A DNA stretch of 64,000 nucleotides, from contig NC_054702.1 in assembly GCF_016097555.1 (NCBI RefSeq), positions 81,481,420 to 81,545,419 of the forward strand. Reading direction: 5' to 3'. Below are positions 47,941 through 53,900 of this stretch, piece by piece. How positions within the stretch are numbered: the first letter of the stretch is position 1; the number at the start of each line of letters is the position of its first letter. The position numbers and the translations under genes are program-made. The notes beneath the pieces are model-generated. The model saw only the letters and a list, made by a program, of their open reading frames with translations. It was not told where the DNA came from and made no database searches. Source of the stretch: Gigantopelta aegis. Taxonomy: Eukaryota > Mollusca > Gastropoda > Neomphalida > Peltospiridae.

Positions 47941-50900
47941 CTGAAAGAAAACGTCAATATTAAAGGGACATACCTTAGTTTTTAAACACTGACGCATATT
48001 TTTTACTATTATAACCATTTTTGATAACTCAGGTCATACTTTACTTAGCTTTTATTGTTTAGATTATTAATTTCCGTACATTCGAAGTGTTTTCAGTCAC
48101 CTGGTGTTTTTAATATCACAAAATGCATTTCTCATATTTTTAAAAACGCACGTGCGTCTGAGAAGTAACAGATATGGAGTCGAGTTTTAGTCCATTTTTA
48201 GAGGGTATTTCACAATTTCAAAGTCAAAGACTCATGTTTCACTCAATTGTAACTTTATCCAAATGTGTTACAGGTTTGTAGATTAACTAAATGTTAATTT
48301 TCACGGGTTGAAACTAGGGTATGTCCCTTTAAAATACCTAAATATTATTCTACCAGTGTTTTTCAGCTCGTTAGCACTATCTAAGTTTTCTAACTTCACA
48401 AATCATTTTTGAGAATCCTAAAACAAACCCTAATGTCTTACTCCTGAAGTCTTGGCGATTGGCTGTCCTTTTATTGTCGAATCACCAGTAATTCACAGAA
48501 GCATATCGCCAAGACATTTACAAAATGTCAATTGGACTATGTATCGTGTAGATAAACCAATTTGAACTTGCTAAAAAGATACTGTATAAACAAAGTGTTG
48601 TTGCCGTCCTTATATTTTTAGTAGCCCAAACCGGATTTTTACCTCCCTATAATTTCGAAATATATATATTGCGAAGTAAAATGAAACACGGCTGGAAACA
48701 CATTGGATATAGAGACATTCGTATTGTAAACAAGAAAATGTATTTAATATGTAATTTTAGTCCTTAAAAGATTCTGTTAGACGGAACTATTTTACAATGG
48801 CTACAAACTCAAGACAGTCCTTTTAAAGAAGATTCATACTGTATTCACAAATTCACAAAAGCTAAAACAAAGTCAGTATGATAAAACCATCATACTTTAC
48901 CTGGGTAAGATCTGTCACGTGGTCTAGGTGTGGGCGGTGGTCTGCGTGTAATAAAATCTAACCTCCTCGCGTCCTCCCGTCCGTTAACGAACTGCGGAGG
49001 GTATTGCGTCAGGTAAAACCGGTTTCGGTTGTGGTTATAGCGTGTTGTCGTTGTTGTCGGTGGTGGTAGTGTTCGCTTGTAGGCCGCGTAGTCTGAAACA
49101 TCAGTTACTTTATGATTAAAATGCAGGTGCTGTATAAACATACAGCACAAAGAGATATCAGTTACATTATGACTAAATACAGATGTAGTATAAATATACA
49201 GCAGAGAAATATCAGTTACTTTATGATTAAATGCAGTGTAGTAGAAGCATACAGCATACAGAAACATCAGTTACTTTATGATGAAATACAGGTGTAGGAG
49301 AAACATACAGCACAAAGAAATATCATTTACTTTATGATGAAATACAGATGTTGTAGAAACATAAAACATACAGAAAGATAAGTGACTTTATGATGAAATG
49401 AAGGTGTAGTAGAAACATACAGCATACAACAACATCAGTTACTTTGTGATGGAATACAGGTGTAGTTCCACCCAAAAGTAACAAAGTATCTTTTAAATAT
49501 GATTTTTTTTTCATATATATAAAACCTGTAACACGTCATGAACAGTCGCATAGAGACACAGACCAAAATAAACTTTTTTCTCTCTTTCATTTGCTGGGGG
49601 TTTGTGCATTGTTGTTGTTTGTTCTTCTTTTGTTGTGTGGATGTTTTTTGTGTGTGTGTGTGCGTGCGTGCGTGCATGTGTGTGTATTTGGTGGGATTTG
49701 GTTTTAGGGGATGAGGTCATTTTTTTTTTTTTTTTTTTTTTTTTTTTATGGAAACATGGATGAAATGGGAAGTTGAAACCTGTTCAACTTTGCAGGTCTA
49801 TCATGAAACGTCTGTGTTGATCTCCGTTCGTTACAGATTTGATAAAAACCAGGCTTTATATATATATATATATATATATATATATATATATATATATATA
49901 TATATATATATATATATATATATATATATGTATATATATATATATATATATATATATTTTCCACAGACAGATCATACAGCAACGGCAGTTGATGTACCTG
50001 GCGTAGTGCACTGGTTGGGACAAAAATACATTTTAAAAAATACACAAGTCCACGGAAAAAGGTTGATTCTACGACCCACCACATCCTAGGCGAGCGTTCT
50101 ACCAATGATCTCCACCCTTCTCTTGCGGTGACTATAGACTAAATAGAACAACATATGAAGCTTACCGTAAAGTATCATCGTCTCTGAATCACGACCCAGC
50201 ATGTTGGAGGCGACACAAGTATAATGACCAAAATCCATTTCTGCCAGATCGCGAATTCTCAGACTCAGCGTTATCGTGTGGTCTCCTTCGTAATAGATCT
50301 CTACCCTGTATTTTAAGCTGTTCACTATCTCCACCCCGTTCCGCTCCCACACACTGATTTCGTGTGGGTATGCGCTGATTATGCATTCCAGGATTGTCTC
50401 CCTTCCAATTTCCTGCCCAATGCGTTTAGTCGGCAGACGCACCTCTGGTACGACTGAAATAAAATGAAACTTGTGTCCGTTATACACCTAATTCCGTCTT
50501 CACGTTCGTGTACATTAACGTCTACATACGGAAACATCAGGTTCCTAGATACAATTGATAAAGACAGGCTGGATAAAAAGTAATTATTAGACGTGGATCT
50601 TTTTATTAACTCATTAAAAATATATAATTTAATGAATATAATAATTGTGAAAATGTCAAAGCTTTACTATGGTACTAGATAAGTAAAGAACAGTAAATGG
50701 TTATTTGTTTAATGATACTCCAAACTATAGCAGTTTGATTTTTCGACACTTTGTCGAGAGCAACACAGCAAACTCTCTACCCCCATATAGGCTACTCCTA
50801 CTGAACAGCAGCAGAGGAGTTTTAATTCATAATCATGATAGTGCATGTGATACCCTAGGTGTACGGGCTGATATTCAAACATTCTTGTATTCAAATGATA

Positions 50901-53900
50901 CTTGAACATTCTTAAATTCAACCTATACTGATTCATTCTTATATTCAATTATTACTCAAACATTCTTACATTCATCTGATACTCATACATTCTAATATTC
51001 ATCTGATACTCATACATCATAAATTCAACTAGTATTCAAACATTCTTACATTCAAATGATACTCATATATTCTTACACCCACCTGAAACTCAGACATTCT
51101 TACATACAACTGATACTCAGACATTCTTACATTCAAGTGATACTCCGAGATTATTTAATTAATCTGACACTCAAAATTCTTATATTCAACTGATAGACAA
51201 ACATTCTTATGCTCAACTAATACTCAAACACTCTTAAATTCAACTGATACATAAACAGTCTTATATTCAGCTGATATTCAAACACACAACTGATGCACAA
51301 ACATTCTTACATTCAACTGATACTCAAACATGCTTACATTCAACCGATACTCAAACATGCTTACATTCAAACGATACACAAACATGCTTACATTCAACTG
51401 ATACACAAACATTGTTACCTTCAACCGATACTCATTCTAACATTCAACTAATACTCTTACTCAAACATTGCTACATTCAACTAATACTCAAACATTCTTA
51501 CATTCAACATATACTCAAACATTCTTACATCCAACATATACTCAAACATTCTTACATCCAACATATACTCAAACATTCTTACATCCAACATATACTCAAA
51601 CATTCTTACTTGCAACATATACTCAAACATTCTTACATCCAACATATACTCAAACATTCTTACATCCAACATATACTCAAACATTCTTACATCCAACATA
51701 TACTCAAACATTCTTACATTCAACATATACTCAAACATTCTTACATCCAACATATACTCAAACATTCTTACATCCAACAGATACTCAAACATTCTTACAT
51801 CCAACATATACTCAAACATTCTTATATCCAACATATACTCAAACATTCTTACTTGCAACATATACTCAAACATTCTTACATCCAACATATACTCAAACAT
51901 TCTTACATCCAACATATACTCAAACATTCTTACATCCAACATATACTCAAACATTCTTACTTGCAACATATACTCAAACATTCTTACATCCAACATATAC
52001 TCAAACATTCTTACATCCAACATATACTCAAACATTCTTACTTGCAACATATACTCAAACATTCTTACATCCAACATATACTCAAACATTCTTACATCCA
52101 ACATATACTCAAACATTCTTACTTGCAACATATACTCAAACATTCTTACATCCAACATATACTCAAACATTCTTACATCCAACATATACTCAAACATTCT
52201 TACTTGCAACATATACTCAAACATTCTTACATTCAACATATACTCAAACATTCTTACATCCAACATATACTCAAACATTCTTACTTGCAACATATACTCA
52301 AACATTCTTACATTCAACATATACTCAAACATTCTTACATCCAACATATACTCAAACATTCTTACTTGCAACATATACTCAAACATTCTTACATTCAACA
52401 TATACTCAAACATTCTTACATCCAACATATACTCAAACATTCTTACATCCAACATATACTCAAACATTCTTACTTGCAACATATACTCAAACATTCTTAC
52501 ATCCAACATATACTCAAACATTCTTACATCCAACATATACTCAAACATTCTTACATCCAACATATACTCAAACATTCTTACTTGCAACATATACTCAAAC
52601 ATTCTTACATCCAACACATACTCAAACATTCTTACATCCAACATATACTCAAACATTCTTACATCCAACATATACTCAAACATTCTTACTTGCAACACAT
52701 ACTCAAACATTCTTACATCCAACATATACTCAAACATTCTTACTTGCAACATATACTCAAACATTCTTACTTGCAACACATACTCAAACATTCTTACATC
52801 CAACATGTACTCAAACATTCTTACATCCAACACATATTCAAACATTCTTACATCCAACATATACTCAAACATTCTTACATCCAACATGTACTCAAACATT
52901 CTTACATCCAACACATACTCAAACATTCTTACATCCAACATATACTCAAACATTCTTACTTGCAACATGTACTCAAACATTCTTACATTCAACACATACT
53001 CAAACATTCTTACATCCAACATATACTCAAACATTCTTACTTGCAACATATACTCAAACATTCTTACATTCAACATATACTCAAACATTCTTACATCCAA
53101 CACATATTCAAAATCCAACATATACTCAAACATTCTTACATTCAACATATACTTAAACATTCTTACATCCAACACATACTCAAACATTCTTACATTCAAC
53201 TGATACTTTGATTTTTCTGCTAACAGCTGGCGGAACCCCGTTGAATGCTACACATTCGTAGACGTCGCTACAATATCGACTGACGTTGTGGATGATGAGC
53301 ACCTCGCCGCTCATTCCTATTTCTGTGAAGAAAAAAAAAAGTTAAATAATATCTAGTATACTAAATTTTGAACAGGAGATATACAATGCACTTTATCATT
53401 TGACAATAAATGCTTAACCAATATATGTATTTTCAAAGTTTTACAAAGAAAGGTATTAGCAGAATCATATTAATAATAACGAGACCTGCGGTTTTTTATG
53501 TGAAGTACTTGGATCGTTTATGAGTATTTTACTTACATATGCTATGATTTCATGAACAATTATTTTAATAATATTTCATAAATTTCCGGCAGATTATTCT
53601 TTTTAGTATAAAACAACCCACAAATGTTTGTTTGTATTTAAGAGGAAACATTTATGTTTAAAAAAATATAATGCTTTAAGATATTTGTGAGAAATAAATC
53701 TAAACTAAACAAAAGCATGCATATTTGTAGTCTAAAAATATGGCAGAACAACTTCAAGGGAAGTTTCAAACAGTTCTGACATAACTGTTTCATAAACTGT
53801 GCAGTGTAAACTGTACCTATAACCTATTGCTGAATGGTATTTAGTTAAAATAGAATAATCCAAGCATTCTGTAAATCAGGAATAAATAGAAATGAATAAG

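Follow-up and report, generated by a model that had tools for sequence, protein, structure and literature searches.

A splice-donor junction as the probable seed of an intronic minisatellite in an immunoglobulin-domain gene of Gigantopelta aegis

The stretch of DNA analysed here, called the window, comprises 64,000 nucleotides of the genome of the gastropod Gigantopelta aegis (contig NC_054702.1, positions 81,481,420 to 81,545,419; all positions below are those of the window). Its minus strand carries a gene for a cell-adhesion protein with three immunoglobulin (Ig) domains, six exons of which lie inside the window. Once joined, they encode 358 residues without a stop codon, and every exon is preceded by AG and followed by GT. 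The 2.7-kb intron that separates exon 4 from exon 5 is largely filled by a 27-bp minisatellite, and the relationship between this array and the splice donor of exon 4, which it embeds, is the subject of what follows.

Among solved structures in the PDB, the Ig2-Ig3 part of the protein has its best match in Dpr-interacting protein (DIP) eta (1.2e-36), with DIP-theta next (7.4e-34) and IgLON proteins lower down (OBCAM, 5.7e-21; neurotrimin, 6.9e-20). Pfam recognizes Ig_3 (5.2e-24) and I-set domains. The resemblance to DIP and IgLON proteins is found, yet placement within the Ig superfamily looks soft because the 136 sequences retrieved in total include further Ig proteins, such as DSCAM (9.8e-34) and MDGA1 (5e-32). 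The name lachesin, given to the gene in an earlier sequence-only reading of this DNA, is a putative label for the same protein group. The same reading had placed a conserved KVSVEF motif at the end of exon 4, and this agrees with the joined exons: the end of exon 4 (AAA GTA TCA GTT GAA T), continued by the start of exon 5 (TC GTA CCA), reads KVSVEF-VPEV. In the PDB comparison, this exon end falls where Ig2 ends in three DIPs: eta, theta and alpha.

Tandem Repeats Finder calls the array at 50871-53207 (score 3157). Wrap-around alignment to the unit GTATCAGTTGAATGTAAGAATGTTTGA resolves it, on the gene strand, into 87 units of 27 bp running from 53206 down to 50868; 82 of the 87 are free of gaps and inserts, and there is one extra fragment of 7 nt. 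The intron measures 2740 bases, and the array accounts for 2326 of them (85%). On the minus strand, exon 4 ends with GTATCAGTTGAAT and the donor follows as GTAAGAATGTTTGA. Put together, the two make up unit 1 of the array: 13 nt of exon and 14 nt of intron, identical to the reference unit at 27 of 27 positions. The final 13 nt of the exon are therefore part of the repeat, much as the sequence-only reading had seen when it described the junction as the first of some 85 tandem copies lying beside the genuine donor. The donor is repeated along with the rest: GTAAGA stands in register in 68 of the 87 units, unit 1 counted, while a direct count over 50868-53193 gives 69, true donor included. The shorter GTAAG occurs 72 times in the 2326 nt of the array (again with the true donor) against nine times in the remaining 11168 nt of the gene.

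Beyond unit 1 the array falls into two blocks (Table 1). The units of the block nearest the exon share derived bases and belong to three classes (GGAT, 39 units; GCAA, 15; GAAT, 8), apart from one irregular unit, which succeed each other with a three-unit rhythm, class match being 0.65 at lag 3 versus 0.37 at lag 1. The farther block is older. Its units differ from the exon junction by 12.4% on average (20 units), whereas the consensus of all 23 is identical to that junction at 27 of 27 positions. The proposal that copies near 51300 still carry the letters of the junction is borne out by the unit at 51323, which has TATCAGTTGAATGTAAGAATGTTTG. That nearly every unit has GTAAGA, as had also been proposed, applies to the young block, with 61 of 63 units, and not to the old one, where the hexamer is found in 6 of 23 units and GT in 12 of 23.

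Table 1. Features of the Ig gene and of its arrays (positions in the window; a slash marks the splice junction)
Feature	Position	Strand	Basis or remark
Exon 1, first of those seen (start of Ig1)	62413-62522	minus	AG/GT flanks, open frame
Exon 2 (rest of Ig1)	57152-57356	minus	AG/GT flanks, open frame
Exon 3 (first half of Ig2)	56057-56209	minus	donor A/GTGAGT
Exon 4 (129 nt, phase 1 at its end; second half of Ig2)	53194-53322	minus	AG/GT flanks, open frame
Exon 5 (Ig3), partner of the exon 4 donor	50166-50453	minus	acceptor TTTCAG/TCGTACC
Exon 6 (after Ig3)	48901-49092	minus	acceptor TTTCAG/ACTACG
Array unit 1, GTATCAGTTGAAT/GTAAGAATGTTTGA	53180-53206	minus	true donor GT at 53193-53192
Young block, 63 units	51488-53179	minus	adjoins the exon
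Old block, 23 units and 7-nt fragment	50868-51487	minus	consensus is the exon junction
56-bp x 2.3 array, further copy of exon 3 acceptor	56208-56335	minus	reaches 2 nt into exon 3
56-bp x 6.7 array	49095-49466	minus	stops 2 nt before exon 6, supplies its pyrimidine tract

Sequence comparison supports the view that the exon 4 junction seeded the array, the exon being the source and the array its product, as had been suggested from the window itself. It does so because the old consensus is the junction, because other copies of the exon are free of the array, and because the unit is found at a single locus. The genome holds at least 13 copies of exon 4, that of the window included, on contigs C2 (nine of the 13), C4 and C10, these counts being lower bounds set by the genome search tool. 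As aligned, all 13 appear to be 129 nt long, with AG before and GT after. None of the 12 others has an array within 25 nt of its donor, nor a match of at least 20 bases to the 27-bp unit in the 1.5 kb or so downstream. Their exon ends read GAA T or GAG T in 11 of 12 cases and CAG T in one. In the nearest kin, which lies some 107 kb off, GTATCTGTAGAAT is followed by GTAAGAACAT (also written GTAAGAACATAATC); it agrees with the unit at 11 of 13 positions in the exon and at 8 of 14 in the intron. When a 24-mer taken from the unit was searched with up to two mismatches over the 1.15-Gb assembly, it hit 71 sites, all of them within the array, although more diverged arrays elsewhere would escape such a search; the same pattern reversed hits none. 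A dispersed satellite family was considered and set aside, all 71 matches lying in one array. Elsewhere in the window the unit finds matches of just 10-14 bases (E >= 1), and no relatives of the array were found among viral contigs.

The intron therefore presents the splicing machinery with about 68 decoy donors that are much like the true one. Scored with a human donor matrix, the true donor reaches 7.5 and the young decoy classes 6.6, 7.5 and 7.8; with scores so nearly equal, the local motif would not mark the true donor among its copies. Read on from the exon, the frame runs through C, K, N and V and reaches TGA as its fifth codon, 11 nt past the true donor and inside the seven codons that the sequence-only reading had allowed. 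Every decoy preserves the frame of the exon, and all of them share one first stop; the first ten stops in that frame are spaced by six or nine codons. Use of any decoy would, as the sequence supports, bring an in-frame TGA. Two other readings were tried and rejected. Coding extension into the array is one, as the exon frame stops 11 nt after the donor and the long open frames through the array are other frames; pseudo-exons within the array are another, the two AGs of each unit having weak pyrimidine tracts (7/15 and 6/15). A structured RNA has little in its favour: no sign was seen of a hairpin that would hide the decoys, the local fold of 293 nt made of the exon and first units being no better than that of shuffled sequences (z -0.47).

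The account that we propose, and which we consider reasonably probable as a whole, runs as follows. In one of the 13 known copies of the exon, 27 bp reaching across the exon 4 end into the donor were duplicated in tandem. The ensuing intronic minisatellite grew in two waves, giving first the units that are now about 12% diverged, then a uniform younger block that came to sit between them and the exon. Up to this point – origin, two generations, number of decoys, stop codons – the matter may be taken as shown by what can be read from the DNA. Most transcripts would then use the first donor via exon definition, because that donor is the earliest to be made and the one linked with the acceptor and the coding exon. 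With a low-level leak to the decoys, the exon would grow by multiples of 27 nt and TGA would be met at once, the outcome being decayed mRNA or a truncated protein without Ig3. That about half of the old units have lost the +1 G may reflect a slow silencing of decoys by selection, a step that we regard as evenly balanced. The array is not expected to bring any benefit: it would be a tolerated load, its length probably varying between individuals. Experiments with duplicated donors, in which the downstream donor can reportedly win, weigh against the part of this account that concerns the first donor.

A leak of this kind has a counterpart in human cells. According to the title of a 1995 work by Turri, Cuin and Porter, the gene IFI6 (6-16, or G1P3) has a minisatellite from which multiple splice donors arise. 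In the passages of a further paper that deal with this gene, two repeat units lying downstream serve as donors and three mRNAs result (PMC4526556), and this makes leakage to the decoys of the window plausible. A minisatellite at an exon boundary, with donors in its units, is the closest precedent for the present array. Where the unit of IFI6 is 12 nt long and adds in-frame residues, that of the window has 27 nt and 87 copies, and each decoy would bring a stop codon; its decoys are putative donors, and its origin from an exon junction was tested with paralogues.

Whether the decay of the old decoys is the work of selection was approached by counting changes at each column of 20 of the 23 old units, three with more than seven differences from the junction being left out. 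The +1 G of the donor is the most changed of the 27 columns: it is altered in nine of 20 units, as compared with six for the next column and a mean of 2.3 for the remaining 26. The unit has a second G within the same AATGT context, and there 1 of 19 units shows a change, versus 9 of 20 at +1 (Fisher P 0.005). Shuffling among columns with the same base gives P 0.0008 for the +1 G and 0.015 for loss of GT; with all 23 old units, where the +1 G is lost in ten, the values are 0.001 and 0.0105. On a neighbour-joining tree made without the +1 column, nine changes fall at +1 and five at the next highest column. Such an excess suggests selection against decoys, with the balance standing about level because the column was singled out post hoc, the +2 T is nearly intact and the units may share ancestry.

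Several facts weigh against selection here. The +1 G test was picked after the column counts had been seen, and loss of GT, the test that one would set beforehand, yields only P 0.01-0.02. The +2 T is barely eroded (one unit of 20, which has also lost the G). Units copied from each other would not be independent, and a local mutation bias could mimic selection. Finally, acceptor decoys in a paralogue, described below, keep their AG in seven of eight cases, so that silencing of decoys is not general. Taken together with the modest number of units, just 20, the late choice of the column, the spared +2 T and these intact acceptors are what commends the chief alternative, in which erosion of the +1 G reflects mutation bias or ancestry without any selection and the array is purely neutral. 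We would give it somewhat less than an even chance: it has to accommodate the same five-base context, elsewhere in the unit, changing in 1 of 19 cases against 9 of 20 at the donor, as well as nine changes at +1 on the tree.

The junction of exon 4 is not the only one in this gene to be bordered by repeats. Elsewhere in the window, on the plus strand, open segments at 2-235, 3963-4235, 20026-20292, 20746-20871 and 21097-21474 look by eye like parts of a receptor tyrosine kinase. This kinase-like gene was left out of a test that bore on the 12 junctions of the Ig gene, with arrays merged by hand (period of at least 10, score of at least 100) and distance tolerances set after the arrays had been seen. 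Three of the five arrays of the gene have an end no more than 15 bp from a splice junction, where 0.22 would be expected (P 0.0008). Two of five end within 3 bp (P 0.001), while tolerances of 5 and 20 bp give P 0.0025 and 0.0016; over the whole window, three of 16 arrays end within 15 bp (P 0.00085). In the array that precedes exon 6 (Table 1), the other units have no acceptor AG at the matching place. A further array of the window, 57 bp x 4.1 at 30460-30691, has in its minus-strand unit GTAGGTATGT and TTGTTTAG, which are donor- and acceptor-like.

A paralogue on contig C2 (L023:3985-4901, the same as L059) appears to be a mirror case, in which the acceptor end of the same intron was amplified. 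There, an array spans the acceptor of the Ig3 exon together with coding sequence. Nine places, including the true one, match at least 25 of the 38 bases made of the acceptor and 26 nt of exon, against none for the reversed sequence. Units are about 84-95 bp long; among the decoys, one is exon-like over some 48 nt (42/48) and another little beyond 12 nt. Neither this array nor the disabling of most old donor decoys figured in the sequence-only reading. Arrays that carry at least 10 nt of an exon with its splice site are found at two (the window and L059) of 44 family exon matches – 13 of exon 4, 15 of exon 3 and 16 of exon 5, the weakest of which are doubtful members – and, because of this count, seeding by junctions would seem uncommon yet not unique to the window. 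L061 is counted on neither side: its array begins 28 nt past the end of the protein match. Near misses occur as well: at L027 (1210-1479 in gene orientation) a 37-bp x 7.3 array stops 19 nt before exon 4 of a paralogue, and an array at L048 falls about 20 nt short of a junction. At L024 (1094-2692), a 76-bp x 21 array starts within about 20 nt after the exon 3 donor of a paralogue. A more general proposition, tentative at this stage and rather doubtful, is that splice junctions of this genome repeatedly seed arrays that take exon and splice site into introns, donor decoys then being silenced one by one by selection at +1. Were it true, the array would document, in nature, what competition between splice sites costs.

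That the array is instead a regulated device seems improbable. U1 would bind many repeats, and the length of the array would set the share of a short isoform, one ending after Ig2 and then either secreted or decayed, making the array a rheostat for the adhesion protein. The human IFI6 repeats that serve as donors for three mRNAs, in the passages cited above (PMC4526556), lend some credit to this idea, as do decoy scores close to that of the true donor with the human matrix and a first stop common to all decoys; a conserved function is, however, the opposite of what is suggested by 17 of 23 old units having no GTAAGA, and there is no donor array at the 12 other copies of exon 4. Much less probable still is a shield, in which the donor motifs bind U1 and block early cleavage and polyadenylation in the intron. 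On the gene strand of the intron, AATAAA occurs once (50607) and ATTAAA four times (50633-51159); four of these five poly(A)-like hexamers come after the array and one lies in the old block, which would suit a shield, as would the excess of GTAAG in the array over the rest of the gene. But AT-rich introns presumably contain many hexamers of this kind by chance, and the other copies of exon 4 manage without an array. Inflation of the copy number during assembly deserves just as little credence: arrays of near-identical units are indeed hard to assemble, but private and class differences between units, and the irregular unit at 53125, are unlike a simple false expansion. Least probable of all is a satellite that was already in the intron and came to reach the exon end or overwrite it, a view that could invoke the other arrays located at splice junctions of the gene and is contradicted by a unit for which the 24-mer search gave no match elsewhere in the assembly and by an exon end homologous in 12 copies without a donor array and in solved relatives.

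Seeding of the array by the exon 4 junction has to be set beside other cases where tandem duplication meets splicing. There is an AGGT-type model of intron gain. A study of intron gain reportedly links tandem duplication to splice-site sequence (PMC4974935). Gain of this kind creates a new intron, whereas in the window an existing junction has been copied into its own intron. In intron 6 of TERT, there is a 38-bp variable number tandem repeat, likewise an intronic array, on which a splicing outcome depends according to the relevant passages (PMC3948165); as these passages have it, the repeat is more than 1 kb from the junctions and acts by RNA pairing, unlike the present array, which embeds the donor and whose local fold of 293 nt does not exceed shuffles. 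Among invertebrates, long minisatellite stretches occur in introns of earthworm metallothionein genes, with no splice sites inside the units reported in the passages concerned (PMC12783039). Apart from IFI6, no other donor-bearing array was found in the open-licence literature that was searched. A boundary minisatellite with donors is thus known from IFI6; what is new here is the size of 87 units, the stops that decoys would bring, an origin that was tested, and the mirror array.

With some 68 near-identical decoys after the true donor, the local motif can hardly be what guides the choice of a donor in this gene. The intron could reveal whether it is position, order of transcription or exon definition that decides, and its two generations of units allow one to ask how strong selection against false splice sites may be.

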